A stretch of DNA of 64,000 bases from Pseudofabraea citricarpa (lineage: Eukaryota; Ascomycota; Leotiomycetes; Helotiales; Dermateaceae). Under the pieces are notes generated by a model. That model was not told the origin of the DNA. It saw nothing but the letters and a program-made list of their open reading frames with translations, and searched no databases. Positions 38,339 through 60,026 of this stretch are shown here, one piece after another. The position numbers were made by a program, and so were the translations under genes. Location of the stretch: positions 1,178,001 through 1,242,000 of the forward strand of contig JAPWGK010000002.1 in NCBI GenBank assembly GCA_029641185.1, given 5' to 3'. Position 1 is the stretch's first letter. Every line of letters begins with the position of its first letter.

Positions 38339-39073
38339 ATGTGTCAACTCGCTAAGGACCACCAAGACGAGTCCACAGATACACCCAAGCTAGTCGGGTT
38401 GAAAAGCAAACCAGAATTCTCGACGCTAGATTCTCTTCCTCAGAATCCACTATGCCAGAAAGCTTTTGATTTTGCTTATTCCCATCTGCATCCATCTATC
38501 TTCAACCACTCAATCCGTGTCTATCTTCACGCTAAACAGCTCGCTTCTCAAGAAAAGTCCCCCCTCCCAACCTCAACCGATGCCGAGACACTGTTATTCG
38601 TCGCAGCCATGTTCCACGACATGGGCACCAGCGCCGAATTCGACGGGCCCGAACGGTTCGAAGTCTGCGGCGCCGATGGCGCCGTTGCCTTTCTCAAAGA
38701 ACACGCACCTGAGATCCCTGCAAGTGATGCCCACGACGTCTGGATCGCCATCGCGTGCCACACGTCTCCCGAGGTCGCAGAGCGCATCTCTCCCTTCTCG
38801 AAAACCGTGCGTCTTGCCATCTTGGTCGATTTCGATCGGCCTGGGTTGAGGCTGGAACACGGCCTCGAGCCCTTGGCCCACGACCTCGAGACCCGCTTTC
38901 CGAGACTCGATATCGAGAAGGTGCTTGGTGATTCCGTCATTGGATTTATCATGCTCCGGGAGGAGGGAGAGCAGAGGCTGAGGAAGGCGCCGAATAATAG
39001 CTGGCCTGGGAGCTTGCTGAAGGGGGAGTTAGAGAGGGAGGAGGGGGATCAGGGGGTTAATAGGTATTTTTGA
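38339..39073 (+). CDS. HD-domain protein, cyanamide hydratase-like
   Basis: Single exon, 244 residues. The HD-domain metal motifs are visible: F-N-H-S-I-R-V-Y near residue 57, A-A-M-F-H-D-M-G near 92 (the HD pair), A-C-H-T-S near 142 and LVDFDRPGLR near 163 (the last Asp). This layout is that of fungal cyanamide hydratase and the yeast DDI2/DDI3 proteins, Zn-dependent HD enzymes that hydrate cyanamide (N-C#N) to urea. Other fungal relatives have unknown substrates. It lies 1.2 kb from the MFS gene (convergent) at the left end of the isocyanide synthase cluster. A role in hydrating a C#N-type group there is speculative; it may simply be a detoxifying neighbour. Confidence 0.82.
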   Translation: MCQLAKDHQDESTDTPKLVGLKSKPEFSTLDSLPQNPLCQKAFDFAYSHLHPSIFNHSIRVYLHAKQLASQEKSPLPTSTDAETLLFVAAMFHDMGTSAEFDGPERFEVCGADGAVAFLKEHAPEIPASDAHDVWIAIACHTSPEVAERISPFSKTVRLAILVDFDRPGLRLEHGLEPLAHDLETRFPRLDIEKVLGDSVIGFIMLREEGEQRLRKAPNNSWPGSLLKGELEREEGDQGVNRYF

Positions 39074-40251
39074 GCGGCGGTAGAGTGGGTGGAGTGGCAA
39101 GGGAAAGTGTCGAGATATACTTCTGGTAATAGAGCTCTGGAATTCGGGATTCAGAACTCTTTGGTTGCATAGAAAGGTTTGATGGAACAGAGAAGAATCA
39201 AGCTTCAGATCTGAACCTTCCCTTGCCCTGGCAAAGTTCATTTTACGTCGCTTAACTTTTTACCCTACACTTCACTTGTATCTTGTTTGGACTTCTGTCT
39301 TTGGAATTAAAATCTCGCTTCTAGTTCAAAGATTCAAACTTGCTCTATTATCTGCGATGGAATTAAAGCATAAATTCATCACATTGTGGGATGGCTTTTT
39401 TTGTTTTAATGGCACTTCCTTCTTCACCCCTCTGATCTATCATATTCTAAGATTCAGATACTCTCACACGATATCATCATCTCGGCTTTGACTGAGAATC
39501 ATATCTACTAAATTTCCTCGCCATGTGTTCCTTTTGCTGTGTTTCTAGAGTCCGACTTAATTATCCCATGCATCAACGCGGCGGAATGTGTAAGTTTGGT
39601 GTAAGTTTGGTGGTAGGGACGTTTTGCGAAAAGGTTCATCAAAGACTCTATCGAGAGAGACAAATAGGCAGCTAAAAGCTTTGCTGGTTAGTCCTACTGA
39701 CTAGCCCAACACCTTTTGATAGTGTGCTTTCACAGATCCACTTATGAGAGAAAATAAAGGTAGCAGTATAAGTATTTCGTGATCTGACATATTTTTCAGT
39801 TGTATAATTCTGAAAACGTGAGTGCATTGCGATTCTCGGATATCTTTTGGAAACTGTATCTTTCTTGATATTCTAGCTAAGTATCTGATTTTAATTAGAT
39901 GGTTTTCATTCGGGGCTAAGCTACGTGGTAGCTATGATAAAGATATATTTTATAAGTGTTTTGCCTGAAATGAGTTAAGTGGTAGATGGGATTTTCCATT
40001 GGTCACTAAAGGGATTTAGAACTAGAACTGTGCTGTATCTCACCATGAATTGGCTTATTCGTCAATTATTATCAAAGCATGAAACACTCCTATTGTCGAA
40101 GGATCTGTTTTTAGTTCAATGAAATGTTTGAAGGGAATTGAAGAGAATGGCTATTTGGTAGAAACACATCTTTTCACTGCTTTTCATGCCTCACAAGGAA
40201 TGAGATGCAACCCGAGGTCTATAAAAAAGGCATATATTCATTATATTTTCA
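39074..40251. other. Intergenic between convergent genes
   Basis: 3' flanks of the HD-domain and MFS genes. AT-rich; no coding frame or repeat of note. Confidence 0.4.
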
Positions 40252-41734
40252 TCATCTGTTTAACACTTTCGTGAACCCAGCCACACCAAGTGCAACAGAA
40301 CCTATAAAAACAACAATCCCAGCAAAGACTGCTGCACCGGTATAGCCTAAGCTCGTAGTGATAATAGCTCCTGCAATTGGGGGCCCAGAGAGAAGTCCCA
40401 GCCCATTTATTGTCACAGCTAGTCCAAGTCTCGCCCCAAACTGCGACATATCTGAGGTTACGCTCCCGATTGTAGCTGGGGGAAGAGAGATAAAAGCACC
40501 GGAGAAGAATCCATAGAAGAGGGTGAAGATAATAAGGCCATGTAGGGTGAGAACGAATGGCCAGATGAATATCAGGATGCTGCCGATAAGAACACATGCC
40601 GAGTGAACGAAGACTGGACCGACTCTATTTTGAATGGTTAGCTGCATGACACCAAAGTAGAGCAATTCTCCAGGGTGACTTACTTATCTGCGATAAAATT
40701 TGGTAATATTCGCCCAAACACCCCTCCAGTGCTGAGCAAGCTGACGAAGTAAAAGCTCTGGAAGCCCTGTAAATCCACGCCCGCATCTCGCACTCGTGAT
40801 TGCAGAAAGTAATACGGTATATAGCAGCCGATAAAGCTAAACATCATTCCTATGACCAAGGCTCGATATTTCGGATCCGCTAATGCTTTGAACTGTACCA
40901 GCGGTGCTTTTGGTTTTGGCGGTAAGTCTCGTCGTTGTCGTATTAGAGCGCAGGCGAAGAACAACGTTACCATGGCCGTAAAACCCACAATGCGTAGAGC
41001 CCACCTGAAGTCGTATTTCTGTAGCAGGCGTTCGAACATGATGGGATAGATGATTCCTCCGATACTTGCCCCGGTTGTAACAAGACCCGTCGCCAATGCT
41101 CGACGCTTCATGAAATACGTGGCTGGTACTCCCACCGAAGTTAGAAAGGTCAACCCCATGCCGAATCCACCCAGAACGCCCTGGCTCAGTAGAATCTGCC
41201 AGTATACCAGATGCTCTTTCCCACTTTCTGCATCAGGCTTGTGTCCTTGCCCAGACAGCGAAGTCATGAAAAGCGATAATACGATCATGACGGATCCAGA
41301 GATAGTCATAGTTCGTGCGTAGCCGGCATCCATAGCCCGCCCCCATAATCCTCCACTCAGAAGTAGCAAACATGATTGAACCGACCCGATCCAAGAGATG
41401 GCAGACTGTGTCCCGAGTGCTGGCGATTGATTGTAGTACGTTTGAAAGATTCCCCACGCATTGATCAGGCCCCTTATAGATAGTCAGTCTCAGCAAGTTC
41501 GGAGCGAATATTCGATGCCTCTTACCAGGTACTGAACATAATAAGAAAACCCATGAGAACTTGGGTCCATGCTAAAACCCCTCCATCTGGAAAGATAACA
41601 GCTGCGGCTGTGGCGTTCCCTCCCTTCTCTTCTCCCGATACTGCCTGTGAGCTTGCTAAACTCTCGGCTGGCGTATCACGACCATTTTCTAGAGCTTCTG
41701 TGTCGTTAGAGATCTCCTGCGGGCTTTGAGACAT
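40252..41734 (-). CDS. MFS transporter, monocarboxylate-porter type
   Basis: Three exons: 41734-41526, 41472-40684 and 40624-40252 (456 residues). After an acidic, Ser-rich N-terminus comes the marker FPDGGVLAWTQVLMGF (the D-G-G-x-x-A-W motif of fungal MCT-like porters at helix 1). Twelve helices follow, with GVLGGFGMGLTFLTSVGVPA and Y-F-M-K-R-R-A-L-A-T-G-L, where the F-x-x-R-R-x-x-A-x-G motif is conserved. The second half begins with LADPKYRALVIGMMFSFIGC. Fungal MCT-like proteins sit in the plasma membrane and are frequent exporters in metabolite clusters. It runs in the same direction as the isocyanide synthase 0.9 kb away, so product export is inferred. Confidence 0.9.
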
Positions 41735-42644
41735 CGTCTCAAAAAGAATGCGCAAACCGGAGGACTGGGTGAGGTGAGGGGTAAAAAATCGCCGTATCCC
41801 TACTGCATCGTGAACCGGCTCAAGGAGGTGTCAATTGATTCTACAAATTATAACGCTCAAGAATAGACAAAGAGTTTCTTTTCACGAAATACAATATTCG
41901 AGGGAAGCTCTGGACCGTGAGGAACGTACGATAAGGATCGAGCATCAGTCCGAGTACGAAATTGATGCGAGTCATCCATCGTTAAGCGATGGCAGATTTT
42001 CTTTTCCATGGCGCCATCCCGTGGAAAATCGAATGAGGAAGTCCACTCTCGGAGAATTCCTAGAGAATCGATCGGCCCGCTTCAAGCGGCAGTTCACTCA
42101 TGCCATATCGTCATTTATTCCCGGAAGTGGAACGAACAAGGCCATTGATCGATCCTTCGGCAGAAAATCGGGCAGGTGGTTGAGGCGACTCTTGGTTGAC
42201 CCAGGACCGGGAACTGCCATTGCCCTGTTTCTCTCGAGATTGTCCCCCTTAGGACTTGGCAAAGGTGCCGTTCTTGGAGAACTTGGAGAACTTGACAGAT
42301 TGTGATTTATTAAGGCAACGTAACATGGATCGCTTGAGCGCATTCCTATTCCATATTAGCGATTGTTAGAGTAGCAGTTGCTTCTCTTTGGTGTAGCGGG
42401 CTCAATTCCGCCCTTTGTCGCTTAAATTGGAGAATAATTCATGTAGATTCTCATTTTAAGCATCTGTTATATGCTGATTTAGAAACGAATAAAGCTATTG
42501 AATCAAAGGCACACAATTATTAAGATGTTTGTTTTACACATGTCCAGAAGTTGCTTGACCTAGAAACTTTACAAAAACCACAAAGTATTCCCCCTGCCTA
42601 TTTTCCCTGCCTTCTTGAATCCAGCTCATAATCCTCCTTTTCAT
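41735..42644. other. Intergenic, MFS promoter and synthase 3' flank
   Basis: Holds the MFS promoter. A plus-strand frame of 156 codons at 41835-42305 is rich in Arg and Ser and has no family features; I leave it out as a gene. No motif recognised. Confidence 0.4.
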
Positions 42645-44874
42645 TTAATCAATGTGAATTCGCCACAGCTCTCTTGGTGCTCCTGGAATAAAACCAGTCC
42701 TTGTATGCATCATGCTAATATTATCGCTCAAGACCAAGTCTCCTTGAACCCACTCATGATAGTAGCATACTCTTCTATCATAGAGCAAGCTATCAATAAC
42801 CGAAATTATCTTTTCGCCTTCATCGGGGGCTATGTTATCAATCGTGACATCTGTCGGATCGAATCTGGTCCTGGTTGATGGCCAAGGCTCGTGATAACGA
42901 ATACATGGTGTGTTGAGAGTCGGGTGTGGCACAACTAAATCCAAATTCTCAATAGTGCTGTTATTAAAAGCAGTCGTTTTGACCGTCCAAGTCAACTTCT
43001 GTAAATCGGATGTTGTGTACTGTTTTGGAAGATGTGAAAATAGAAGGCGGGAAGAGGCAACCAGTGTAAGACCACAAGATTTAGGCGACGGCGTCGCAAC
43101 GGTAAACCACTGGAATCTGGTGTAGATGTTAGCTTCGTCTATGAGGAGAAGGGTAATTTGACTTACTTTGGTGGTTGTGGGACTAATCTCTCACGGCCTG
43201 CTTCGTCATTCACAGCTACCGTCTTGAATAAACCGTCGAAATGCATTGGCATTGCCTCAGCACTCAAGACGTTGTTCAAGCCACCGTTCTCACTTCCTGC
43301 ATCTTTCACCACTAAAACTTCACCAAACTTCCACGGCATGACTGGACCCATTTCTCGAGCTTTCGCAGCAAATAATGATAGATCTGTGGTATTTTGGAAT
43401 CCCCGGAGTACGATTGGAGAGTTATGTTCGGCGAGCTTTCGTATTTTCTCCATGTTAATGACACTCATTGAAAGATGTTCTTGATTGCGAGGCGAGATCT
43501 TGATGCCACAAGGATATAAAGGCGCGACGTCTATCTCAACACCTTCCCAAGAATACAAGTCTGATTTTTTGCGGTAGTACGATGGTCTCTCATTTTTAAG
43601 GATCAGCTCGTAGCTTGGGTCCTCAGCAAAGTTATGCTTATGTGCATATCGCCAGGAACCGTCAAGTTCTAGGGCACAAGAACAATGCCATGGTGTGGTA
43701 TATGCCTCTGCCCCAGAGAACAGTGAGATTGGAAGTTTGTATTGACTCTCAGACTCATGAATCGAGATTCGAATTGATGATGGGAAGGCTTTTTGGATAG
43801 CGAGCGCGAAGGCCTTTCGAACTGTTAGTTAGCCGTGCTATACAATCGGGTTTAGAAATACTTACAGCGCCCCGCTCAATCATTTTCTTAGCCACCACTT
43901 CATTCATCTTCTTTACTTGACTTTTGCTCTTCCCTTGTCGTGTAGATTCATGCTTCAAATCGGTTGCTAGAAATTTGATATAGCCACGGTACGTCATCAG
44001 AGAGTTGATTTGATTCTTAAGCTCCACATTGACATCGAAACCTTTCGGTAGGTGTCGCTTGACCATTTCAGATCTGTACCACTCTGCATTGGAAAGGTAG
44101 TCCTCGAGATTCAGTGGCTCTGGGCAGTCGTCTGCAATAAGTTTGCTCAAGCGAGCAAAGGAGATGCCTGGAAAACTTTCGCTTGCGAGTTGCCTCAATT
44201 GAGTACCATAATTCCATACATCTTCCTCGGACACACCAAGGAGATCTAAGAACAGAGAAGTTAGTCGCAATTTATCATTGTTGAGATTTCGATAACATAC
44301 CATTATAAACAAGACCGTCAGATACGATGCTGACAGTTGTGCCCGGATAAATCTCGTTGATCTGGGCACAAAGTCCGTCAAGGGTAGCCAGAGCAAGCTC
44401 TTCGCCCATATCTGGCAAAGAACCGAGCACTTTATCAATTCTATTTGGCGACTTGAATGGAAAGGCTGGAAGAATGAGGTGAAGAGGCTCATTCTTTTCC
44501 ACCTGTGATCGAACTAAGTCTTCCATGATCGGTCGCCTAACAGATTCCCGCGATGCTGGCGAATATGAGTATAAAGTAGCGATGATCTTTTCGGCAACTT
44601 GAGCAGATTGCTCATCGATGTGTGGTTGTCTGAGGCTAGCCCTGCTCACAAGCAAGTCCTCAATCGTTGTAACTTCATTGTCGATCTCAAGAGTTGTTTC
44701 GGTAGTGAAACTTTCTCCTGCTGAGGAATCTCCTTCAGAGTCACTCGAACTAGTATCAACGACTGGTGTTTGATCTGCTAGTATTGGTGTTGTTTTGGTG
44801 AGCACATCGCTAGGAGATGTGCTGTCCGATAGAATATTCCACAAGTTACAAGGCGTCGCTTGAGTTGCGTACAT
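42645..44874 (-). CDS. Isocyanide synthase fused to Fe(II)/2-oxoglutarate (TauD) dioxygenase
   Basis: Four exons: 44874-44301, 44245-43866, 43813-43167 and 43116-42645 (690 residues). After a Ser/Thr-rich, low-complexity first 70 residues comes a Dit1/PvcA domain at about 85-320. It has LILPAFPFKSPNR at 133-145, SLPDMGEELALATL, then the S-D-G-L-V-Y-N-D-L-L-G-V block at 185-196. PvcA and IsnA join C2 of ribulose-5-phosphate to the amine of an aromatic amino acid to give an isonitrile. Residues of about 370-690 are a TauD fold: iron ligands H509-x-D511 and distal H671, with the 2OG-binding arginine R686 (E-L-W-R). In bacteria and in fungal XanB this half decarboxylates to the vinyl isonitrile. 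All catalytic marks are intact. It lacks NRPS-like or transferase domains. This is the core enzyme of the cluster. Confidence 0.93.
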
Positions 44875-46500
44875 ATTTGCGTTGCTCCAGAAGATGGATA
44901 GTATTTTCAAGCGAGAAGTGAGTGTTGCAAGAGATTACTCCTTGACTAAGTAAAAGTATTATATCCAACAGTAAACGAACTTTTACTTGGCTGTTTTTGG
45001 AGGATCCGAGATCCGGGATACATCAAATACTTGCATATCAGCAGAGCTTTTTGAAACATGAGTACATGGGTAGAGCCGATGTCGCCACACCACCTTCCAG
45101 AATGGAGACATTTCTCAAAGTTTTCACCTTTTTTGCCATCGCAAGCAATCGAAAGGAAGTGTTTCTGTGCCAAGGACACTTGCCTTGATTTTGTGCCTTG
45201 TCATGCTTCGGTTATACCCGTCAGCCCTAGAAGATGGACACATCAGGTGGACCAGAAACATCGAACAACTGCCTAATTCAGATGGTTTCCGGGGTTGATC
45301 CATGGGATCCAATATGTTTGAAATTTGCATAAGATACGGATGGCACACAGTATAGGGAAAAGCTTAGCCGATCTTTCAGGAGAACATTTCAAATTTAGAA
45401 TCAACCGAGTCTTATCAAACAATCCATGTGACTAGGTGTCTACTCTGGAAATCCTCAGCCTTCTAATTTACTACATAGATTGAAATCACCAGAATCCTTT
45501 GAACCACATTTGCAGCCACCTCAGTGGATATTGTAGCTTTTTTCTGAATCGACCGATTGATATTACCTTGGGGAAACTTCGGCGATGAGTTTCTCATCTA
45601 CGTATGCCAAAGCATCCACACTCGACTATACACACCGTTGACTTAACAGTTCCACGCCATAATTTCAAGAGTTATCTAATAGATTCGCCTCGGCTCTTTT
45701 TGATTCAACAAATGAGGATCTCTTTGGTAAAATGGCGTCTTTTGTAGAAAAAGAAAAATCCACTTTAACTTCTACCACCCTATCCTTAGGCAAAATCATC
45801 ATAAATCAGCCTATATCTTGTAGTTTATGAGGTCACAGACACGTCGTATGTGGTACCACCTTCTGTTTCCTGGTTTGGAGTCTAGACTGACTCTCGTCGC
45901 TAATCGGACATCTCCATAGAGTTTGTGGAGTAGGCGATACGGTTTTCACCAAGACTTCGGCATCCCTTCGGCAGAACAAATCAGGCCAGATAAAGATTGA
46001 AACCATTGTTTGCCAGGGTCTGATAGCAATGACTTACTCGTTTATGTGTCAGAATTCCTGCGGAATGGCGCCGCTGTTGCTTATGAATACTAATCTAATC
46101 AGATCATGAGCACGACTCGCCTTTCATAAAATAAAAAATTCGCCAAGCTTATGCAGGAACGGATCAAGAGTCAACCCAGGTTACTCTGCAGGGTTCCATC
46201 ACCTACCTGCCTACGGAGTACATCGCCACAGAATGTGGATCACGGAGGCACGACCCTAATCTGAAGCATGAGATGGATCTTCCCGAGTATGCTGGATATC
46301 GCAAGACGCCGCCTGCACTGTACCCTACACGAAGGTTTTCGTCTTTCCATTAATAATTTTCGCAATCCTTCCATGATTTTGCTCGTACTCGCATTGTTTC
46401 TACATGAATGACTTACAAAACTTGAAATTTATCACTGAGATACACCCCATTCTGAGCATCCACACATCTACCTATTCTATTCATAACAAAAATATCCTTC
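44875..46500. promoter_or_regulatory. Divergent promoter region of the synthase and the first monooxygenase
   Basis: A 1.6 kb gene-free gap separates the oppositely transcribed synthase (minus) and FAD monooxygenase (plus), so both promoters lie here. I see no convincing coding frame and no repeated motif; the CCCCACA string of the neighbouring divergent promoter is absent. Confidence 0.45.
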
Positions 46501-48396
46501 ATGTCGGACTTTGATATTACAATTGTAGGAGGTGAGTTACCAGAAGTGACTAGTGATGAATTGTACAGAGCACTGACTACTAGATAGGCGGTCCAACTGG
46601 CCTCTTCTCCGCTGTGCTTGCTCGCCAACTTGGGTTGAAAGTCTGCGTTCTCGGTATGTTTTTTCCCTTAAAGTGAAACAAATATATACTGACACCGATT
46701 CAAGAGAAAAGATCTGGTCCATTAAAAGTTGGCCGAGCTGATGCATTAAATGCACGCACCCAGCAAGTCCTTGATGTTGCAGGAGTTCTCAAAGATTTAA
46801 GACCACATGGCCTTCAATGCAATAGTAGGTGAATAAATACGTGCTAGAAATATTACTAACTATCTTAACAGCCAGTTCAATCTTCAAGGATGGTGAATTC
46901 AAGAGCAGAAACAATCGTTGGTGGGTCAGCATCAAGAACTCTAAATACAAAGAGTTTTTGATGATTGGCCAATCTGATGTAGAGAAAGCTCTTGTTAAAA
47001 ATTTAGACGTCGATGTGCTGTATAACTCAGAAGTCGAAGCAGTCACTGAATCAGCTACTGGTGTTACAACAAAAACGAGTGCTGGAAACATTACATCAAA
47101 ATATGTCATTGCAGCGGATGGTGGTCATTCCCCAATTCGGAAGCAACTTGGAATCGAATTTCAAGGAGATAAGCCAAACATGTGCTGGGCGGTTCTAGAC
47201 ACTTTTATCAAAACAGATTTCCCAGTATGCAACGAAATTATCAGTTTTGAAGAAAATGGACAATCACGAGTATCATGGATTCCAAGGTATGTTTATTTTC
47301 ACTTTGCAATTGATTATTTTATGCTTTCTATTACTCTGTACTATAATATTGCCGGCCTACAAGTTATATCTTTCTATTTTGTTGCATTAAAACAGCTGAT
47401 AACATATTAAATTAGGGAGCGAGGAATGGCGAGATTCTACATCTTGCTTGAAGGCGAGGTTACCCAGGAGAAATCTGAAGCGTCAATTCGAAGCCACATG
47501 AAGCCATTTAATGTCGAATTTCAAAAGACAGAATGGTTCAGTACTTACAATGGTATCTATGAGAACTTTCCCAGACACTGATTGTTGTTAATTTTTAATT
47601 AGTCCAAGAACGCGTTGCCGCAACCTTTCTCTCGCCACTTTCCAGAATCGTCTTAGCAGGCGATGCAAGCCATATTCATGCGGTTAATGGTGGCCAAGGC
47701 CTCAACACCGGAATGGCTGATGCGTTTGCCCTTGTATGGCGAGTGGCTCTTGCTCTCAAATCCGAATCTGATGTATCTGCACGTCGACTTCTTGAGTCAT
47801 ATGATCTAGAACGAAGGATCACTGCTCAGACTGTGGTCAATGTAGCAGGTAAACTTGTCCGGAGCACTTTGAAAACAGCTCAGGAATATGTTCAACTGGT
47901 TGAAAAGAATGCTGCTAATATTACTGGGATGGGAATCACTTATGCTCCAAATTCTCTTACTGTTACGGAAGGCACTGTCGGCGATTTCACTGCTGGTGCA
48001 AGGTGTGCCGATATCGAATTCTTGAAGTCATCTGTGGTCAAATTACGGCTTTATGAGCTGGTGAAATACGGCGATTTCCTGGTACTAAAGGGCAAAGATT
48101 CGATTATTCAAGTGCCTCAATCACTAGAAAATAAGGTCAAAGTCTGGGTGGTTGAACAGGAACAGGATTCTTGGACAATTACTACAGAATCTGGATCAAA
48201 ACTGAAAGGAACCTTTGAGTTTAATCAAAGCTCAAGCATTGTTATCAGACCTGATCTATATGTTGGATTTGCTGGGAGCAACGCTACAAGATATCTGGAG
48301 GGCTTAGTTGCGGGACAAACTACCCACATGGTACCCAAGGCACTTCCAACTTATTACGATACCACTCGTAGGGTGCTCTCCCGCTTATTTTATTAA
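46501..48396 (+). CDS. FAD-dependent aromatic-type monooxygenase (FAD_binding_3)
   Basis: Six exons: 46501-46531, 46588-46653, 46705-46824, 46872-47286, 47416-47552 and 47603-48396 (520 residues). The dinucleotide fold is G-G-G-P-T-G at residues 10-15, split by the first intron. Next is VGRADALNARTQQVL, the class A hydroxylase signature after the FAD site, then Y-V-I-A-A-D-G-G-H-S (the D-G motif). The FAD-ribityl site is RIVLAGDASHIHAVNGGQGL followed by N-T-G-M-A-D-A. This is the p-hydroxybenzoate / phenol 2-monooxygenase class, NAD(P)H-dependent, flavin hydroperoxide chemistry on aromatic rings. A C-terminal thioredoxin-like domain seems present. The GG replacing the more usual P in GDASHIHA.. 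is worth noting. It probably hydroxylates or epoxidises the synthase product. Confidence 0.9.
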
Positions 48397-48591
48397 TAAG
48401 TTGTCGTTCTTAAAGGACTTTTATATATCAAATACCACTTGTATACTAAGAATAGTGACCAATAAAATTTACTCAGAGAGAAAATTAGCCTTCAGTCTAA
48501 AAGTCTTCAAGTTTATTACTATTTAAGTGAATATCATATCCATAAAAACACGCTCGGTACGACTCGGGTCGTCTGATCTAGCATCCATAAT

Positions 48592-49669
48592 CTAATAACC
48601 ATCTGGCCATGCCGTGCTCAACCACTCATAAGGTTCCTCTGGGACGTACTGATTTGTGACAGTTCCATCCCACTCGACAATGCTATCTCTTGTCAGGTTG
48701 TACAAGGCAAACTTTTCATCTGGTCCAGTGCCAACAGTAATTGGAACAGTCTGAACATTGTTCGCAATTTCCTTATCAACCATTCTCGTTAGATTACTGA
48801 TTTGACTGTTCTTAAGGCGGTACTCATCGCCATAATTTGGATTGATCTGGGGATTAAAGTTAGCGATGTGAATTTTCATCTTGGAAGTCAAAACTTACTA
48901 TGCCCATTCGTGTACCAGTGATTGCAATGACATTTTGAATTGTGGCATTGCGTTTTGCTTGATTCAGGCAGTTACCGCAGGATTGATAGAAGGTCCCAAA
49001 GTTCTCAGCGTAAAATCCTGTGATATTATACTTTCCCCCGAGAGAATTGTCCTGGAAGATCTTCGCTTAATTAGAGTATATCCAAACTCTGAAAATCTGG
49101 GGTAGACGAACCTTATCTGTAGCATTCCTTGCACCACCTCCAATGACACGTAGTTGAGTGTTCAATCCTTTAGATGTCAAAGCATCTTCGCATACATCTT
49201 CCCACCATACTGAACAAGGTTAGCACGTGATTAAAATGGACTTGTACTGAGAGGATTCGGATGTACCATTTTCAACCCAAGCATCACCAAGAGCATGAAT
49301 TCCCTCGGCCTGATTTGCACCAATGATGACATTACGAATAGTTGCTCCCGGCATCAAATTAAAAACCGTGTCGGCATCCGTGCCCTCGGCCTGTTCATTG
49401 CAGCTACCTTCTGGTCTTTCATACCGTTTCATGCCACCATCAAAAGTCTGCCCTGGCAAAATGTACAAAGCATCTTGCAAGACAACAGTTTCGGTTGCTA
49501 CTGGAAACTTTGCGACAGGAAATGGAAACCTTGGTGGAGGGCGCGCTGCAAGATCGGCTTGTGTGGAGTCTTGTGAGCCTCCAGGACCATCAAGTTGGCG
49601 AGGTTGGATAGCTGCTGCTTCGAGAAGCGCCGGTAGAAAAGCAAGCGAGAAGGTCGTGTAGAGTTTCAT
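48592..49669 (-). CDS. Secreted pectate lyase, PL3 family
   Basis: Four exons: 49669-49267, 49209-49112, 49060-48899 and 48846-48592 (305 residues). A signal peptide ([18 protein letters not shown]) and a Pro-rich linker precede the right-handed beta-helix, with [59 protein letters not shown] and [18 protein letters not shown]. This is the PL3 pattern: extracellular Ca2+-dependent cleavage of polygalacturonate by beta-elimination, used on plant cell walls. It is convergent with the upstream monooxygenase (195-base gap). It has no obvious role in isocyanide synthesis and may be a bystander or a co-regulated plant-infection gene. Confidence 0.92.
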
Positions 49670-50730
49670 TGCGAAGATACAAGATTACCGGTATTGAAAC
49701 AGGGAAAGACAATCAAAGTAGCTCAAACCTTAGAGTTTTTCAAACTTTACAAGCCCTTTTATACTTCACAATCATCTTTTCCCCAGCCACCACCTGATTC
49801 TTGCCCCAGATCTCCCCGCATAATCGTCGCATTCTGCTTGGGGTCTCTCCAGCTCATGAGGTACAAGCCGGGTCGTGTAGATTGAGATTGGCAGCCACGG
49901 GAAAACTTCAGTCAATTCCACGAATGATTGTTTGTTGAAAGCCTGTCGCCAAGTTTTGCCAATGCGTGGAGAAGCTTCTCCGCTTCAGTCACGAAGTCGC
50001 CAAGCTCCTAACACCTCAGCAGTCAACCGAGATGCTACGTAGGCAGCTTTGCGTGTAGTTCACCGTTCGATCCAACTAAATATGAGATGGGCCAAGCACG
50101 CCTTGTTGATTTGAGAACGCTGGTTCGTGTTAAAATCATGATAAAGTATAAGCCATCCAAGGGAGACCGGAAAATTCTTTCTCCCAAAGGACTCTTTGTG
50201 ACAGAATGAACCTGATAACTTGAGGATTAATACGGAAGATATTATGATCGGCTAAATGTTACAACAAGCCTGGTGAATGAAACATGACTGTGTAGCTTTT
50301 GGGCTCCAATTTGAACAATCTCCACTACCAAGAGCTGGGCCACTAACATGGGGGCTGTTACCAGACTTACTTACTAGGCTTTTGGCATGAAGACTAAACT
50401 GGTCGATCAGCTGACATTAGTTGATCGACACTCCGCATTTTCTTTTTGAAAAGCGGGGACGAATCAATTCAACAAAAAAGGGTCGATCAGCGATGAGCAG
50501 AGAAGTGCGAGAACAATTGATACTGCTCAGACAAGTCAACGATTCACTGCGACAGTCTTGCTACTCCACGGTGTAGAGGGGTGGTGAGATTAATAAATGC
50601 ATACCGTAGGGCTGCATATTTTCAAACAAATTAGATTCTCGATTATTTTCAATTGAATCGATGCTAATATGAAGACGCGTAGCTCGGGAAAGAACAAACT
50701 AATCATAATCGGAATGATCTATGCAAATTA
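49670..50730. other. Intergenic
   Basis: Promoter of the pectate lyase and the far 3' flank of the broken acyltransferase. A short imperfect inverted repeat lies at about 50400-50430 (TGGTCGATCAGCTGACA / AGTTGATCGACA). No coding frame. Confidence 0.4.
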
Positions 50731-52074
50731 TTAAATTGCCGTCTTCCGTGCGTACTTTTCAGTCTCAAATAATTGCTGTATTGTATGCGATCGAGGGTCA
50801 CCAAATGGAATCATTTGGCTCGCGTAAAAAAGAGATAACCCCGATTTCCTGTCTATCGTCCATAATAGATTCGGCAAGCCACTCCAAGATATAGTCCCCT
50901 GTCTTCTTCCACTTGGGAGATCAGACGAGAAGTAATCATCATGGTGCCAAGGCCCCAGTCAAGTTCAGTGCCAGGAGGTATACTCGAGAATGTGCCCCCT
51001 CCAAAGAGGCAATGACATCATGCTAGTGTAAATATTGCGAGCGTCGTCACTCATCTGTGGTTTGAATATCTCATCTGCAGTCTTAGGCTTCAATAACTTG
51101 CCATCGTTTGCACAAAGACTATGAAGTATTTTGATGAATTCAACAGGTGATCCATAAGCACCAGACCCACCATATTCATCGTCAGTTGAAATATCGTAAA
51201 GTTCTTCATTGAAAAGATAGGCTTTGCTTATTTTTAGATCTGTGCCAATACCTATCATTGGGTCTGGAACTCCTTCCCTTGTACTGAGGGCCACTAATCT
51301 TTTTCTCATATCCGGTCGTCGATCAAGATGAAAAGTCATGTCCTTGATATTAAGAGTTTCCCAAGTGTACCTTTCCATGAACTTTTGCAAACGCATTCCA
51401 CTCAAGCGAGCAATCAAGATACCGGCCCAGTCTAAGCCAAGACCATAGTTCCAGCTAGTGCCTGGGTCGAACAAAAGTGGAACGCTAACCCTGTCCAGGA
51501 TTGGCATTCCTTTGGTTACTGGATCTTCACCTCTTGACGTTCTCTAGCGAACCAGGAGTGGGTTTGAGATATCATAAGATATTCCAGAGGTATGGTTCAG
51601 CAGCATCTACAGTAGTCAGTAGTCAGATATTAAAGGACCGTCTTGCAAAATGGCAAAAATTTACCTTAGAGTGATTTTGTTCCTTCGTTTCTTAAAAGTA
51701 GGACTGTCATCCCATTCTGGCCAGCTGATAATCTGAATCTTTTCCAACTCGGTAAGAATCGGGAAACGTCGTCGTCCAAGCTGATCTTGCCCATCTCTAC
51801 ACATCTTAGAGTGGCTACCGTTGTCATTAATTTCGTGCATGATGCTAATCTAAAAATTGCGTTTACATCAAGGTACTTTGACGATGGTATAGAACTATCC
51901 AGATATTGTTTTCCAAATGCCTTTTTGTATTGTAATTCACCTTCATGTGTCAGTAGTTACCAGCTGTTAAGAAAGGCAAATCAGCATACCTTGTACATCA
52001 CGAGCTATAAGAGCAATACCGCCAAGGATCTGTGATTCACAGGCTGCTTGTACTTGTTCTTCAAAAGATGACAT
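50731..52074 (-). pseudogene. Broken class C beta-lactamase / LovD-like acyltransferase gene
   Basis: Homology to the LovD/EstB-type serine hydrolases can be followed from the ATG at 52074 to a stop at 50731. Landmarks are the nucleophile motif A-S-C-T-K-L-M (S-x-x-K), H-T-S-G-I-S-Y-D, VPLLFDPGTSWNYGLGLDWA (with Y-x-x-G), Y-G-G-S-G-A-Y-G-S-P, and the tail P-P-G-T-E-L-D-W-G-L-G with W-S-G-L-P-N-L. The frame is broken at least three times, near 51755-51762 (one base missing), near 51005 and near 50930. A TAG at 51546-51544 replaces the tryptophan expected before R-x-S-R-G-E-D. Family members transfer acyl groups in polyketide and other pathways. The motifs are still close to family consensus, so inactivation looks recent. 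Confidence 0.85.
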
Positions 52075-52499
52075 CTTGCTCTTGATTCACTACAAACGTG
52101 TAAAAATAAGTAACGAATTTGAAGACTGAATAGCACAGCATACTTTATTGAAGAGCTATTGATCATTGCTGCCTAAATTTAGTTGGTGCGGGGGGCTGTG
52201 GATTTGTGATCGACTTTTTCTAGGGCCTCGCTCACTGATCGGCAGAGCTGTGCTACCTCTCAACCATGCACCAGGCTGACTTGATCGCTAATTAAATTCA
52301 AACAAACAGAAATTTGCTTCAGCAAGGTAGTTAGGGTTAGACTACTAGGAGTCAGATACAAACATATCACAATTATTGTCTGATATAAAACGAAACTTAC
52401 ACCGTCATATAATCTAGGGATAAACATGTAATTAGACAACTGTAATTCTATTGAGTAAATTGGCTTGACAATTGATTACAACATGTAGCACATGTATTT
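52075..52499. other. Intergenic
   Basis: 5' flank of the broken acyltransferase and 3' flank of the second monooxygenase. AT-rich; no feature recognised. Confidence 0.4.
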
Positions 52500-53783
52500 C
52501 TATAATCTTGCTTCGGTATTCAGTCGCTTTTGTACCCTGGCTGAGAGCTCCTCCCATTGTTCTTCTGCAACCTTCTCTGCATCGTTTGCCCAAAGGTATG
52601 TGGTAGTTTGTCCAGACTTGGTGACATCAAAGTCTTCTTTAAACTGTTTGCTATCTTTATCGTGTAAGTTATGCCAAGTTTCTCTTTGTTGAATTCCCGA
52701 AGATTGAGCTTTGGCCACATAATCATGCCGAATTTCGAAACAGGTGTGCAAGGCAAGTGGAATGTTTTCTTTGCCAGCCTTAGCAAGACAGATGGCGATG
52801 GTTGCACCATCCTCAATTGCTTGACTTGCACCTTGGGTAGAAGTCGGTAGAAAAGGATGGGCTGCATCACCAATGATGGATATCAACCCGGAATCTGCAA
52901 CCCATTTGGAGAGACATGGTCGGTAAACCAACTTCCAGTCGATACATGAAGGCATCTTTTCCCATACTCGCACAAAAGCCGGATCCCATCCTTTTGCAAC
53001 TTTGAGGACGTCTTCGGTTCTTCCAGGCTTCGCCCAGTCTTCAATGATATCTTCAGAATCTTTGTGTGTTAGTACAGCATTGATTTCCTTTCCACCACGT
53101 AATACGGTAATGAAACCGTGAGCGTCTGGGGCAAGAAACAAGTGCATAGAGTCTCCTTCCCTAATAAACTTGCCCGCTATTGGGTCATCGCGAATCAAAT
53201 CTCCATCCATAAAGGCTCTATAAATGGCATATCCGCTGGCCATTGGTCTGTCTGGAATGCCCAGAACCATCTCCCTTCCTTTGCTTCGAACGCCGTCTGC
53301 ACATATCACAACATCTGAAACAACTTCTTCTCCACTATCCAAAATGACACTTGGCTTAGCCATGTTGTATTCGGAAATAGTTTGACCCATCCGGATGTCA
53401 ACCCCAAGTCTTTTGCAGTGTTCAAAGAAGATCAGATGAAAATCTCCCCTATGGCCAATCAAGCTTCGACAGCCGTATTTTTCTTCTGATTCTCCAAGTT
53501 GTTCGTCGAATGCTAGAACAGTGTCGGAGGTGTCATAGCTATGAATTGTAATTCTTGTTGCGTTGCTGGAAATCTTCGCTAGATCCTCTCCTAATCCCCA
53601 GCGATAGAGCAGTTTAGATGAATTAGGTCCAAATCCAATAGAGTCTCCGAGTCGCTGAAATTCATCGACCTTTTCGAATAGTGTGACCTGAAATCCTTGC
53701 TTACGACACGCTATGGCACATGCTAGACCACCGAGACCGCCTCCAACAACCGTAACTTTTAGGGTATCGTTTTGTGAGGACAT
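52500..53783 (-). CDS. FAD-dependent monooxygenase, salicylate hydroxylase-like
   Basis: One exon without introns, 427 residues. The FAD fold starts V-T-V-V-G-G-G-L-G-G-L at about residues 11-21 and has the acidic end of strand 2 (FEKVDEFQRLGDSIGFGPNS). It continues with the R-G-D-F-H turn, V-V-I-C-A-D-G-V-R-S, and the ribityl site ISIIGDAAHPFLPTSTQGAS followed by Q-A-I-E-D-G-A. This order defines class A flavin monooxygenases of the salicylate / 6-hydroxynicotinate hydroxylase group, also frequent in fungal metabolite clusters for ring hydroxylation or epoxidation. It is divergent from the O-methyltransferase across 390 bases, which suggests shared control and consecutive hydroxylation and methylation steps. 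Confidence 0.92.
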   Translation of the reverse strand: MSSQNDTLKVTVVGGGLGGLACAIACRKQGFQVTLFEKVDEFQRLGDSIGFGPNSSKLLYRWGLGEDLAKISSNATRITIHSYDTSDTVLAFDEQLGESEEKYGCRSLIGHRGDFHLIFFEHCKRLGVDIRMGQTISEYNMAKPSVILDSGEEVVSDVVICADGVRSKGREMVLGIPDRPMASGYAIYRAFMDGDLIRDDPIAGKFIREGDSMHLFLAPDAHGFITVLRGGKEINAVLTHKDSEDIIEDWAKPGRTEDVLKVAKGWDPAFVRVWEKMPSCIDWKLVYRPCLSKWVADSGLISIIGDAAHPFLPTSTQGASQAIEDGATIAICLAKAGKENIPLALHTCFEIRHDYVAKAQSSGIQQRETWHNLHDKDSKQFKEDFDVTKSGQTTTYLWANDAEKVAEEQWEELSARVQKRLNTEARL

Positions 53784-54173
53784 AGTGTATTTGGCTTTTG
53801 AGAAATTGACGAGATCCAGAACTGATAGGTTTCTTTTTGGGAAGAATAGCTGTCATTTGTGCTGTTTTTATCCTGCTGATTGTTCGTAGCATGGATTTCC
53901 ACCTCCACCTAACTTTAGGCGAGCAAGCAAATATTTTTCACCCCACACATGTTCCCCACAAGTCTTGGTATTTGAACTTGTAACAAGGCTCATACTACTT
54001 TATGTAGGTTGTTATTGTATGTGGGGATTACTGAGGAATAGGGGTGGCTTGTGGAGATTTGGGTTTATGAGATTGTCGACAGCCTAAATTCCATGGAGGT
54101 TTTTTCTTCCTTTCTCTTTTTACCAAATCTTGAACTTCAAAGAAGCAAGCAACGAAACAACAAACCCTTTATC
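53784..54173. promoter_or_regulatory. Bidirectional promoter with three CCCCACA motifs
   Basis: The gap between the divergent monooxygenase and methyltransferase carries CCCCACA at 53941-53947 and 53954-53960, and its complement TGTGGGG at 54020-54026. Three copies of a seven-base word in 86 bases is more than chance would give. C2H2 fungal regulators often bind C-rich sites of this kind, and a C2H2 regulator gene lies 3 kb away, so a binding site is a plausible inference. Confidence 0.4.
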
Positions 54174-55801
54174 ATGTCTCTTCTTCAGAACCTAGCAGCT
54201 TCTATTCAGGCCAATGTTGATCTATACGAAGCCGAGATCGGCTCTAAGCATATGCCACATCTGTGGGAAGCATATCCTTATTCTGAATTGGATGATGAAA
54301 CAACCCTTTCTTCTCGACATACATTCACATTGATGGAAAAGATTCGACTTGATCTCCATGCTTTAGAATCTGCAATCACTCCATCACGTTACAAACTACT
54401 TGATATTGTGCTAAGCCCTGCCAAGACAGCAGCCCTCAATGTCGCAGTATCGTTGGGTGTATCCGATGCTATCGTAGAGCTTGGAGGGTCGGCCGAACTA
54501 GACAATCTTGCCATGCGCTTGGATGTGAATGAAAACAAGCTAGGTATGATCAGAACGCCCTTCATCTCCAACCATGAGGTCTCAAATTAATGTCCATCAA
54601 GGTAGAATCTTGAGAGTCCTCGCTGCGGATTTCATTTATGCAGAAACAAGTAAGAACGTTTTCTCGAATACACGGCACAGTATGGCACTTCTCAATAGAG
54701 AGAATGCTGCACCATTCCTTTCCCTCACGTAAGTTACCTTACAAATAAAGTGTGCGCAACCATAGCTGAAATGTTGATATAAACAGAGCTGTCCAAAATA
54801 CCATTAGTACGACAGGGCTCTTGAACGACCTCACTAGTCCCGAAACCAAAGAATCATTCTCTGTAACCACAGCACCATTTACAACTACTGTTGCAAAAAA
54901 TGGAGAGACATTCTTAGAGTATATCGTTCAGCCGGAAAATGCTATGCTATTGGAAAAGGTTGCAAAGGGGGTTACTCCATGGCTCAACGTATGAACCTCC
55001 GAGCTTATAACGTTGTACAATGGCTAATTTTCGAAGAAAACGACACGTGCAGCCTTACTCGAAGACTATCCATGGTCGGAACTGGACAATGCAGTTATTG
55101 TTGATGTCGGATGTGGTCCAGCAGATAGTGCAATGGATATTATGAAGAAGTTTCCTAAACTTCGATGGATATTCCAAGATCTACAGCCCGTAATAAGCCA
55201 GTTAAAAGCGGTCAGTCTCTTTATAATCTCACCTCATTTAGCCAATCAACCTAACAAAAGATCAGAACATACCGCCCGATGTAGTTGAGAGGGTTTCTTC
55301 TGGCGACATCTCCTTTGTTACCCAAGATTATTTCGTCCCAAACTTTAGTTCAGCTAACGTCTGGTTTCTACGTGGAGTCATGTAAGTTACCTATGCGGAC
55401 CCCTTATCAATTATCATTCTCGTATGCAGTGGCTGACTTGGGAATTTAGAAGAGAATATGACGATGACGCGGCTCTAAAGATTCTTGCTAATATTGTCGA
55501 TGCCATGAAAAGGAGTGAAGGCGCTCGGGTTTTGATCAATGAGGTGCTGTGTTCTTCGCCTGTTGTTTTCCCTGTTTCTACAGATTCGAACATCGTGCCA
55601 TCAAACTACATTCCTTCGGATCAGTCTGCAATCACAGGAACAGCTAACTTGATGGCATGGAATGCGGTAGCGCTTTTTGGTGGGAAAGAAAGATCATTCG
55701 ATGAAGTTCAAAGGCTTATTGGGCAGGCTGGATTGAGGATTTCTCGTTTTTTTAAACTCCGCTCTATCACAGTAATGATAGAGTGCGTGTTAGCAGATTG
55801 A
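54174..55801 (+). CDS. SAM-dependent O-methyltransferase (plant-type OMT, PF00891)
   Basis: Six exons: 54174-54543, 54602-54728, 54787-54988, 55037-55210, 55266-55381 and 55450-55801 (446 residues). The N-terminal helical dimerisation region contains ALNVAVSLGVSDAIVELGGS and R-I-L-R-V-L-A-A-D, a winged-helix pattern. The SAM site is NAVIVDVGCGPADSAMDIM then F-P-K-L-R-W-I-F-Q-D-L (motifs I and II). W-F-L-R-G-V and R-V-L-I-N-E-V-L follow. The usual catalytic W-x-D-E stretch after R-G-V is replaced by R-E-Y-D-D-D, an unusual spot that may reflect a splice variant at 55382-55449. It probably methylates a hydroxyl introduced by one of the neighbouring monooxygenases. Confidence 0.88.
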
Positions 55802-57063
55802 GGTGTTAAGAAACCTTTTGGGATACCAGGTCGAGGATATTGCAAAAGAAAACAAAAAGATTCATTTGCTTAAGATATGTCTTGGAATGAATGTGACTGA
55901 TGGATGAAAATCAATTCAAGACCATGGTTCATAGACTTTTCAATGTTTCCAAGGAATACCGTTTCCATGAAACTAGGACTTTCAGAGTACACCGGAGTCA
56001 ACTCCATAGTATTTCATACAAATCAATTGAATCTCAGAAATTCATTATAAAAAATACTAATGGTTCTTTCCCTAAGTTTTGCTTGTCTTCATCCACTTCT
56101 TACATCTTCATATTTCAGAATGTCATTACATTCTAACAGTGTTATTTGTTAGCTCCATGGCATCGAGGATTTCTACTACAAAATAAATTAACCATGAAAT
56201 TAAAAGCAACTCGATTCTTGAAACTAAACATGAATACTTTTAAGGGAGAGGCGGCTGGCTATGTGGGGTGGGGTTGGTGGGGTAGAGTTCAACCCCCACA
56301 CACGCTAGAGACTTTGCTTGCTCTGGGCCATGACGAAGAACAACAGGCTATTTGCCGACAGTATCCCAGGTATGATACAAAACGAATAACTGGATCAAAT
56401 GACCTGTCAATCGTTATGCACAACGATGAAACACTTGGTGCAGTTACAAAAGCTAAAACTCCCCAGTAATTTTTACAATGCTTGGCAACTTTGACAAACA
56501 GGCTCAGATAACGAAAACGTCCATACTTAAAACGAAAACCCCTTCGTATAATTAGTGCACCTGAATAAATGCTGCACAAGTTTATATAGAAAATCACAAG
56601 TTTAGACTGACACATTGAGACATCCTCGTAATCGACGACAACTCCAAGTGGGTCACGGAGGCTGCGGAAAACATATTCTGCTTACGTCGAGCTTACCACT
56701 TTCTCTGTGATAGAGTTTAAGTTACGGTAAAGCGGATCCTTTTTATGGGTTCAAAAATTATGCTCGTCATTGTGAGCCTCGCTAAAAGTATAGAGTTCTG
56801 AGTTAAGCCAATTAAGTGTCTCTCATATACTACGAAGAGACAATAGAGGGTCAATCCCGGTGCCGAGTGCTAAAATAACATTTTCCCGTTCCAGCGTTAA
56901 TCATCTAAGTTAGACATTCCCCGCATTTACCAAAATCTCGGTCAAAAGCCTGTTCTGTCTCTTCAGATTTACTATTCTGCAAACCCCCGACATTTGCATT
57001 GCGCCCGAGGATGGTAGCTATCAATGATAAATAACTCAAAAAGTTCTTCTATGTTTATGTAAT
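55802..57063. other. Intergenic with a G/C-rich inverted repeat
   Basis: Contains the regulator's promoter. At 56262-56300 it holds TGTGGGG, an imperfect inverted repeat GTGGGGTTG (56268-56276) / CAACCCCCAC (56290-56299), and CCCCACA (56294-56300), the same word found in the divergent promoter upstream. No coding frame that I can support. Confidence 0.45.
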
Positions 57064-60026
57064 ATGACTACACCAGGTAAGTTGCTCTCAATTGACGCTG
57101 AGATAAACTAACATGAAGCAAGCCCCTACACCACGTCAAGGTGAAAAAGTTCGTTCTCATGTTTGCATATTTTGTGACTCGGCATTCACTCGTGCCGAGC
57201 ATCTTCGGCGTCATGTTCTTTCACGTGGGTGTACCTAACTGCCCCTTTAATGTCTAGCTAGCTAACCAGAAGCACGCAAAGATGAAAACAGGAAGACACA
57301 CAAATGTAAAATATGCAACATGAAATATGGTAGAGCAGATGTTTTGAAGAGGCATATGAGAAAATGTACCAGAGACAATGAACGTCGGACCGGATTTTTA
57401 AGTGGTCAAGGAACGGAACCCATTGGAAAAGAGAGGTAGGTAATTCACAGTTACATCTTAGCCTATTCTATCCGCGAAGATAATTCTATTGATTTCTTAG
57501 AATATGAAACTGATTGTACGGTTCTTAGCAGGAGGCCTGTAGAAGTAACCGGGTCTGAAAGTCATAAGCATGAGGCTTCTCAAAGGAGCTCAGGACACGA
57601 CAATAACCCTATGCCATCGAGTATAAATGAAACAAACTACAATGTATGCCATTCTTTTAGTAGATTTCATCAAGACACTCTACTAGAAATAATCTTGGTT
57701 TCACATTATGCTAATGAATACAAGTCCTTCTTACCATCTCCAACATCACTTCCACCATCAAGTCATGTTGAGGTTGTCCAGAGCTCCCAGAGTTCATATC
57801 TAATTGACAGAAACCACGAAACAGATCTCCAATCTACATACGACGTCTCTGAGAATTTCATGTTTTTAGAAGAGGCACTTCTTCCAGAATTCAATTATAA
57901 TTCTATGGACTTTCTTGCGGATATTTATCCCGAAGAGCCTCTTAATATTACAATCTCACCTCAGAGCTGTGAGATTCGGGATCAGTATCGGGAACTTAAT
58001 CTGACTTCGATATCACAAAATGATACCATGAGAGTTGACACGGATCCTAACGGAAATAAAGAACTACGAATAAGTACCGAAGATGTCAACTCATTTGAAG
58101 AAAATCTCATGTGTTCTGACACCTCCAACCGGCTGGCAGACTTTTGCTTTCCCAGCAGATGGAGGATTTTAAGACTTCTGACTGCCTATTTTGACTACTT
58201 TGATCCTCATACACCAATAATACATCGTGCATCTTTCAATTTGTCTGAGAACTCCCGTAAGTCTATCATGCCATTAGAAGGTTGCTTGTATCAACCGCTT
58301 AAAGTTCCAAGCTGCTTTAGTATTGGCGATGTTGGCCATAGGAGGACTTCACGTGCATGAACACGAATTTGCCAAAAAGGCATACGAAGCATGCAATGTT
58401 CTTCTTGCCGAGGTAAATTTAAATACTCCTAGTGATCGTTAAACTAATTATCTGCAGCATGAAATTGAGCGTGCGTCTGGCCAAAAGCAACCATTTGCTA
58501 TTTGGCCTATCCAGACAGCAGTTCTATGCGCCCAGTTTGGTGCTTTTAGCGACGACGAAGTTGAGTCTCATCGATCGCAACGACAATTCTCCTTTATTGC
58601 AACAGTAAGACTCCTGGACATTTTATGTTCTTGACTAAAATTGGATAATAGATGCTTAGGGAAGGCCATGATCAAGTTGCAAAGGTTCAAAGATTGCCAA
58701 TCCTTACATGGTCTGACTGGATTTTCCTAGAAACATTCAGCAGGTAAACTCTCCTGAGATAACAACAGTCCGCACATGTGTATAATAACTGACATTATAC
58801 AAGAGTCACAACCTGGACAGTGATTCTGTGTTCTGTTATCTTATCTTTCGATTCAGCTGCTGTTTGCATGGTCGCACATCAGCCAGTAGATCTCCCACTA
58901 CCCTGTGATCAAAATATATGGTATACTCAATCTGCGCACAAGTGGCAGCGAGCACGAGGTCACTCATTTCAACAAACAGGCATTGGACTGTGGACAGCCA
59001 CAAAGATGCTTCTACAGGGTGAGAATTTGTCAGTGGATTTGAGTCCCTATGGATTATTAGCTCTAATCGGGGCAATATCATCTTACATCTGCAGTCACGA
59101 GAGACTCTCTATGGGGTCAGGAGACAATGCTAGAAACTCATTTACTCATCAGCTCGAGCACACTTTAAATCTATGGGAAGAGCTTTGGCGCAAACATCCA
59201 CAAGCAGAGCAAGTTCCAAGTCGACAAGGTGATCCACTCATGTCTGATTGTTTTTCGATTCTTGGATCTGCATATTATCATCTATGGACTGGCTCCGAAC
59301 TGCAAACTCTCAAACAATTTACCAAAGAACCATCCATTTTCCCTCGGCTACCTGACTTCCGAGCGTCGCCAACTGCTCTGAAAGCAGTCAAGTACGCCGC
59401 TAACTCATGGTCTGTTCGCAGCAAATTGGGAATCTCGCATCTGGAGAAGACAGGGGCTTTGGTATTTGGAGGTCATACTTTAGTCACGGCATTCGAAGGT
59501 GGTAAGTATTTAAAGACTCTTTTCAAAATACTAAAGCCTGGTGCTAATTAACTTAAAGTTCTCCTGCTGGCCTGGTGGCTATACACCACAGATGTAGAGG
59601 CTCGTTTGGAGAGTACTCGCAATGAGCAAGAACGCGTCTTAGATCGTTTGATCCGAGAAATTTTCGAAGAATTGACAGATCAAGGTATTGAGATTGCACA
59701 AAAGCCACGTTCGGCTATTTTGATTGATTGTTATCAACGGCTTACATCCCCCTGGGTTTGGACCTGTAAGAATCTATTCCATTTCCACCAATTTTATTAC
59801 AAACGCTAATTTGATTAGACGCCAACATAGTTTCACAGGATCTCTCTACATTTTTAGACAAGTTAAACTTGCTTGCCATTAATGTGTAGATACCATGCCG
59901 CTTTCTGGTGAGGCATTTATTCGTACTTGGGCATGGAAATGGAACACAAGTGATTACCTTGAGGCATACAATGTGCCAGTTGTTCCAATAGACAAAAAGA
60001 TGATTGAACATACTGTAGAGCTCTAG
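57064..60026 (+). CDS. C2H2 zinc-finger + fungal_trans transcription factor
   Basis: Ten exons: 57064-57076, 57123-57224, 57270-57435, 57532-58256, 58312-58412, 58458-58604, 58652-58743, 58804-59501, 59559-59765 and 59890-60026 (795 residues). The first exon is only 13 nt. Finger 1 is C-I-F-C..FTRAEHLRRH, followed by V-L-S-Q in my splicing, where a second histidine is expected. Finger 2 is C-K-I-C..YGRADVLKRH with R-K-C after it. A long polar linker precedes the fungal_trans-type domain from about residue 300, with LRLLTAYFDYFDPHTPIIHR, LAMLAIGGLHVHEHEFAKKA, P-I-Q-T-A-V-L-C-A-Q and R-Q-F-S-F-I-A-T. Two N-terminal C2H2 fingers plus this domain is a known fungal regulator layout. Lying at the cluster edge, it is the best candidate for pathway control. 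Confidence 0.88.

Follow-up and report, generated by a model that had tools for sequence, protein, structure and literature searches.

A 64,000-nucleotide stretch of the Pseudofabraea citricarpa genome (contig JAPWGK010000002.1, positions 1,178,001 to 1,242,000; hereafter the window, with positions counted from its first nucleotide) carries a gene for an isocyanide synthase (ICS) fused to a TauD-type dioxygenase, next to a divergently transcribed class A flavin monooxygenase that we call FMO1. Isocyanides are reactive compounds that bind metals. We think it rather probable that this locus encodes a small isocyanide pathway, with ICS-TauD and FMO1 as its core and a major facilitator superfamily (MFS) protein as a possible exporter, in which a vinyl isonitrile would be made and then hydroxylated on its ring by FMO1. 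A first-pass annotation of the window had drawn a 22-kb cluster running from an HD-domain gene to a transcriptional regulator; the core supported by our sequence comparisons appears smaller, comprising ICS-TauD and the divergent FMO1. The domains, the catalytic residues, a residue pattern associated with vinyl isonitriles, the linkage of the two genes and their correlated divergence were all observed here.

The fused synthase-dioxygenase and its predicted product

The ICS-TauD gene is intact, as had been claimed, with PF05141 and PF02668 in one protein and zero stops in its reading frame. A listed homolog from Coleophoma crateriformis has the same length and 69% identity over 99%, and the closest relatives among the matches listed come mostly from Leotiomycetes, pointing to that class for this genome as well. 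Five solved relatives were found: the synthases 9dhm, 9dh4 and PvcA (3e59), and the dioxygenases PIsnB (7tcl) and PvcB (3eat). In the alignment, H509, D511, H671, R686 and W479 of ICS-TauD correspond to H101, D103, H250, R265 and W74 of PIsnB, which are described as the iron ligands, the carboxylate-anchoring arginine and its tryptophan partner (PMC9467999). All five residues are identical in 119 of 119 compared rows, a set made up of 118 of the 120 listed homologs (P0081 and P0118 were left out) and a paralog on contig C15 of the same genome.

Two further positions bear on the product. In the PIsnB study, enzymes that form vinyl isonitriles are distinguished from those that form isocyanoacrylates by K or R at PIsnB position 107 and N or H at position 188 (PMC9467999). 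The corresponding residues here, K515 and H609, fit the vinyl-isonitrile pattern; across the 119 rows the first position holds K in 116 and R, N and F in one each, while the second is H throughout. By this pattern, the dioxygenase is likely of the PIsnB type rather than the PvcB type, and a vinyl isocyanide, which the first-pass annotation had named, still looks like the likely first product once the iron ligands are also considered. The pattern predicts the product but does not prove it, because two single mutants of PIsnB-Ah at these positions left the product unchanged (PMC9467999).

The iron ligands and both vinyl-isonitrile residues point to a best model that would run from tyrosine through a vinyl isonitrile and ring hydroxylation by FMO1 to export. 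The PvcA-like domain would act on an aromatic amino acid, of which tyrosine is the likeliest, and join its amino nitrogen to a carbon from ribulose-5-phosphate, giving isonitrile-tyrosine, and the TauD domain would remove CO2 and desaturate this intermediate to 4-hydroxystyryl isonitrile. FMO1, which is phenol-hydroxylase-like, would then hydroxylate the ring, probably beside the phenol, to yield a catechol, and the MFS protein would export the product. We infer the substrate, the order of the steps, the position of the hydroxylation, the export and any copper-related role. Copper responsiveness has been reported for the xan and crm clusters of Aspergillus fumigatus (PMC5974471), and it could be extended to this locus only by analogy.

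Similar to the proposed route, the bacterial pvcABCD and PIsnB/rhabduscin pathways use an isonitrile synthase followed by an iron- and 2-oxoglutarate-dependent desaturase. The flavin enzymes differ, FMO1 being of class A and PvcC of another class. The proposed ring hydroxylation would parallel the dihydroxylated ring of the pvc product paerucumarin, 2-isocyano-6,7-dihydroxycoumarin (PMC3639982). Among fungal enzymes, XanB and IcsB of A. fumigatus likewise have an ICS domain fused to a TauD dioxygenase (PMC5974471), a likeness of domain architecture rather than one drawn from an alignment of their sequences. The neighbours differ, with FMO1 standing here in place of the xan-type cytochrome P450 (P450) and ThiJ/PfpI hydratase.

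Linkage of the synthase to FMO1

Homolog searches, in which about 8,000 candidates were scored each, returned 436 ICS and 1,232 FMO1 matches, and the best 120 of each were compared. When rows lacking a species name were excluded, 45 named species were common to the two lists, and ICS and FMO1 were linked in 38 of them, as read from database rows (neighbouring locus tags or contigs of identical length) rather than from direct genome synteny. Locus tags account for 13 of these links, of which 11 are consecutive (as with AAFC00_000749/000750 in Neodothiora populina or L3040_003039/003038 in Drepanopeziza brunnea), one is three apart and one is ten apart in what appears to be numbering by tens. 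The other 25 links come from equal-length contigs only, for which about one match would be expected by chance when contig sizes are summed over an assumed 40-Mb genome; 14 of these contigs are shorter than 1 Mb. The distance matrices of the two proteins are also correlated (r 0.94 over 39 taxa), a value reached by none of 1000 permutations. The linkage in 38 of the 45 shared species supports FMO1 as the true partner of ICS-TauD. Among solved structures, FMO1 is matched best by VibO, 3-hydroxybenzoate hydroxylase and phenol hydroxylase.

Among the 38 linked taxa, the nearest to the window for both ICS and FMO1 is N. populina, a Dothideomycete. Its ICS (P0004) groups among Helotialean sequences, in a six-row set that includes the window, with support of 99/97 in a tree of 55 of the 120 listed homologs and four sequences from this genome (the C15 and C39 branches being long). 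Since the tag of its FMO1 homolog (P0122) directly adjoins that of this ICS, the placement suggests that the pair was transferred as a unit.

Several observations weigh against our interpretation. Contigs of equal size were treated as one and the same; of the 25 such contigs, 11 exceed 1 Mb, where a shared contig does not amount to adjacency. Seven of the 45 shared species show neither a tag nor a contig link, and the correlation of distances is inflated by common species history. When 11 species with close ICS sequences were checked (the ten best named ICS species and Coleophoma cylindrospora), six had no row of their own among the best 120 of 1,232 FMO1 homologs; in these, FMO1 may have been lost, be unannotated or fall below the list. 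For Hymenoscyphus albidus, the top FMO1 row (73%) comes from the sister species H. fraxineus. Some FMO1 homologs are named after other pathways (FmpF-like, TerD-like). In addition, the vinyl-isonitrile residue pattern is a correlation in the study that described it (PMC9467999), and the substrate and product are predicted from the genes.

The MFS transporter is a possible member of the core, less certain than FMO1. In four of the best 120 of 1,232 FMO1 rows, the homolog is annotated as a fusion in which an MFS protein of the same family follows FMO1, with about 30-32% identity to the window protein over the longer aligned stretches. Members of this family also lie near three ICS loci in the genome, namely in the window, adjacent to the ICS gene at C15 and one gene away at C39. 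Against core membership, the family is large in this genome, with at least 50 matches, and the closest paralog of the window protein (C12:1520855) lies away from any ICS locus.

Neighbouring genes and alternative readings

The genome amounts to 44 Mb in 43 contigs, and the window comes from the one labelled C12. Between 38 and 60 kb the gene order is HD, MFS, ICS-TauD, FMO1, pectate lyase, a broken beta-lactamase-like gene, FMO2, O-methyltransferase (OMT) and regulator (Table 1). Genes were modelled with a splice-aware script, without RNA data, and then scanned with Pfam; because the models come from this script rather than from RNA, small genes may have been missed and gene ends may be off. 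The scan bore out all of the genes described earlier, including the MFS protein, the two class A flavin monooxygenases, the OMT and the two divergent pairs, which are separated by 1,626 bp (ICS/FMO1) and 309 bp (FMO2/OMT).

Table 1. Features of the window and of other isocyanide synthase loci in the genome (window positions unless a contig is given)
Feature	Position	Strand	Details
ICS-TauD	42645-44874	-	690 aa; 4 exons by splice model (44301-44874, 43866-44245, 43167-43813, 42645-43116); PF05141 E 7.3e-88, PF02668 E 7.1e-24
FMO1, class A flavin monooxygenase	46501-48396	+	520 aa; 6 exons; FAD_binding_3 E 5.4e-58; divergent to ICS
MFS transporter	40252-41734	-	456 aa; 3 exons; PF07690 E 4.5e-29
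HD-domain protein	38339-39073	+	244 aa; intronless; PF01966 E 1.6e-7
Pectate lyase	48592-49669	-	PF03211 E 2.4e-44; inside the proposed cluster
Broken serine beta-lactamase-like gene	50734-52071	-	limits by eye; PF00144 matched in two separate pieces
FMO2, class A flavin monooxygenase	52500-53783	-	427 aa; intronless; FAD_binding_3 E 1.1e-16
OMT	54093-55801	+	473 aa (446 aa from internal Met); PF00891, PF08100; divergent to FMO2
C2H2 + Fungal_trans regulator	57064-60026	+	about 771 aa; 11 exons by splice model; PF04082 E 6.6e-8
Fungal-rhodopsin-domain gene	61772-63309	+	beyond the regulator
P450 model	26299-27546	+	heme motif at 27258; six-frame motif scan of the whole window
ICS-TauD paralog	C15:630527-632614		intronless; F at pattern position, K in 116/119 compared rows
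Divergent pair of single-domain ICS	C39:2073956-2077735		locus 2067185-2077735
More distant ICS gene	C9:872.4-874.1 kb		locus 872408-877294

Two genes that had gone unmentioned split the proposed cluster, standing between ICS-FMO1 and FMO2-OMT-regulator. One is the pectate lyase, which has no known link to isocyanides. The other is the beta-lactamase-like gene, a stretch at about 50.7-52.1 kb whose reading frame is interrupted; none of three intron penalties yielded an intact model, and the gene is probably decayed. This layout invites the reading that the window holds two adjacent, functionally unrelated modules, with MFS-ICS-FMO1 making an isocyanide and FMO2-OMT-regulator making some other aromatic metabolite. 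We would put its chances slightly short of even; it is compatible with the preferred isocyanide core and goes further in what it says of the genes on the right. In addition to the intervening genes, it draws on the species found for the OMT, as none of the named species among the OMT homologs listed occurs in the ICS list and one occurs in the FMO1 list. The best solved matches of FMO2 are also in line with it, being MAK1-like 7cp6, the FAD monooxygenase 6pvf, the decarboxylative vanillate 1-hydroxylase 8x38 and CtdE (7kpq). However, we recognised no backbone synthase among the genes of the right half, and FMO2, OMT and the regulator are tied to each other by position alone.

Alternatively, all of the genes from HD to the regulator may form one pathway to a hydroxylated, O-methylated aryl vinyl isocyanide, as the first-pass annotation proposed. 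Most of the genes belong to types often met in secondary metabolism and lie within 22 kb, a size in keeping with the average ICS cluster of 8.42 genes and 20,589 bp given in a published survey (PMC10153163). FMO2 and OMT share their short divergent promoter and could be a lineage-specific addition. Even so, we find a single pathway unlikely. The part of the claim concerning FMO1 is upheld by its linkage to ICS, but the part concerning the OMT is not, as none of the 17 OMT homologs found lies on a contig whose length recurs among the 240 rows listed for ICS and FMO1. The promoters of HD, MFS, ICS, FMO1, FMO2/OMT and the regulator share no 8-, 9- or 10-mer above chance; the observed sharing was reached by 137, 226 and 65 of 300 random sets, respectively, drawn from 39 control promoters of this genome, and the overlap of the 1-kb ICS and FMO1 promoters could only have raised it. 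Likewise, the ICS-FMO1 and FMO2/OMT intergenic stretches have eight 9-mers in common, and as many or more were seen with 128 of 500 random stretches. The FMO1 and MFS promoters each carry one Mac1-like site, which is not informative. Because the OMT homologs found show no such link, promoter sharing stays at chance level and two genes intervene, the O-methylated product is left without specific support.

For FMO2, the HD protein and the regulator, the comparison covered this genome, solved structures and family models. The regulator has a Fungal_trans domain above the cut-off, but its two C2H2 fingers miss their cut-offs, one with 23.3 bits where 25.2 are required and the other with 19.8 where 27 are. 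An HD gene is present, yet its described likeness to hydratases is weak, as it scores 51.5 bits with the model of the TIGR03401 cyanamide hydratase family, whose cut-off is 109.85, and so lies outside this family. It has no DJ-1_PfpI match in the Pfam scan and no solved relative at E 0.1. We considered it as an isocyanide hydratase and rejected it on this weak family match and the missing solved relative. The HD gene is located at the edge of a stretch of higher G+C (about 0.50-0.545 at 31000-38000, as compared with 0.40-0.47 at 38-60 kb, in 2-kb windows). Pending evidence to the contrary, we regard FMO2, OMT, the regulator and the HD protein as neighbours.

A different fate for the ring may also be considered. 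Dermadin- and trichoviridin-type compounds of Trichoderma are cyclopentyl isonitriles made from tyrosine, and FMO1 might dearomatise and contract the ring to give cyclopentenyl isonitriles of this kind instead of a catechol. Homologs of both ICS-TauD and FMO1 are present in Trichoderma, but T. longibrachiatum, the only member of the genus in both lists among the matches listed, is not linked by tag or contig. The solved enzymes closest to FMO1, named above, also argue against this, as we know of none among the three that contracts a ring. Isonitrin A is included among the fungal isocyanides in PMC5974471. We regard ring contraction at this locus as quite improbable, and it is a long shot that ICS-TauD and FMO1 form an uncharacterised two-gene module across several Ascomycete classes in which FMO1 rearranges the ring to cyclopentenyl isonitriles.

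It is very hard to see the locus as the xanthocillin (xan) cluster, which we rejected on gene content: the ICS-TauD architecture is that of XanB and an OMT lies nearby, XanE being a putative methyltransferase (PMC5974471), but none of the nine DJ-1_PfpI (ThiJ/PfpI) matches in the genome falls in the window and neither strand showed a P450 heme motif from 38 to 64 kb. The six-frame scan of the whole window found a single such motif, some 15 kb away from ICS-TauD. Thus, the earlier remarks that no P450 lies beside the core and that the tailoring set differs from that of xanthocillin both hold. A genome search with PF00067 scored 92 of 297 candidates and misses this P450, and hence is no test of absence.

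Other synthases in the genome and the wider family

By our reading of exon matches, the genome holds five ICS genes: two ICS-TauD genes (window and C15), the pair on C39 and one on C9. The C15 enzyme sits on a long branch of the ICS tree, and the phenylalanine at its K515-equivalent position means that its product may differ. The C39 pair is accompanied by a DJ-1/PfpI gene (isocyanide hydratase type), one of the nine such matches in the genome, and by MFS and amidase genes, and it may belong to the two-ICS gene cluster family (GCF) 1 of the published survey. Some 3 kb separate the C9 gene from a P450 match (876833-877294), an arrangement expected of a dit1/dit2-like locus; an upstream piece there (875710-876360) had no Pfam match.

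The survey of fungal ICS describes 3,800 clusters in 200 families (Nickles et al. 2023, PMC10153163). There, GCF 6 has an ICS-TauD backbone and spans Eurotio-, Sordario-, Leotio- and Dothideomycetes as well as a single Basidiomycete species; a backbone of this type is shared by families 7, 9 and xan (PMC10153163). The best 120 of 436 ICS homologs span the same classes and include at least one Basidiomycete row, from Panaeolus cyanescens. With its ICS-TauD backbone and this similar species spread, the window locus may be a member of GCF 6, although the backbone would also fit families 7, 9 and xan. In the available portions of the literature, we found no study of the ICS-FMO1 pair or of the product of such a module, and the match found for ICS with FAD concerns a different pathway.

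Neighbouring oxidases and methyltransferases are easily swept into a fungal cluster by eye, and a loosely drawn 22-kb cluster is here narrowed to a core of two or three genes. ICS-TauD enzymes are a kind already known in fungi, and the point of interest is the product of the conserved ICS-FMO1 pair, whose linkage offers a clear target for work on an isonitrile module. If it were true that FMO1 rearranges the ring, the pair would give the cyclopentenyl isonitriles of Trichoderma a genetic basis.

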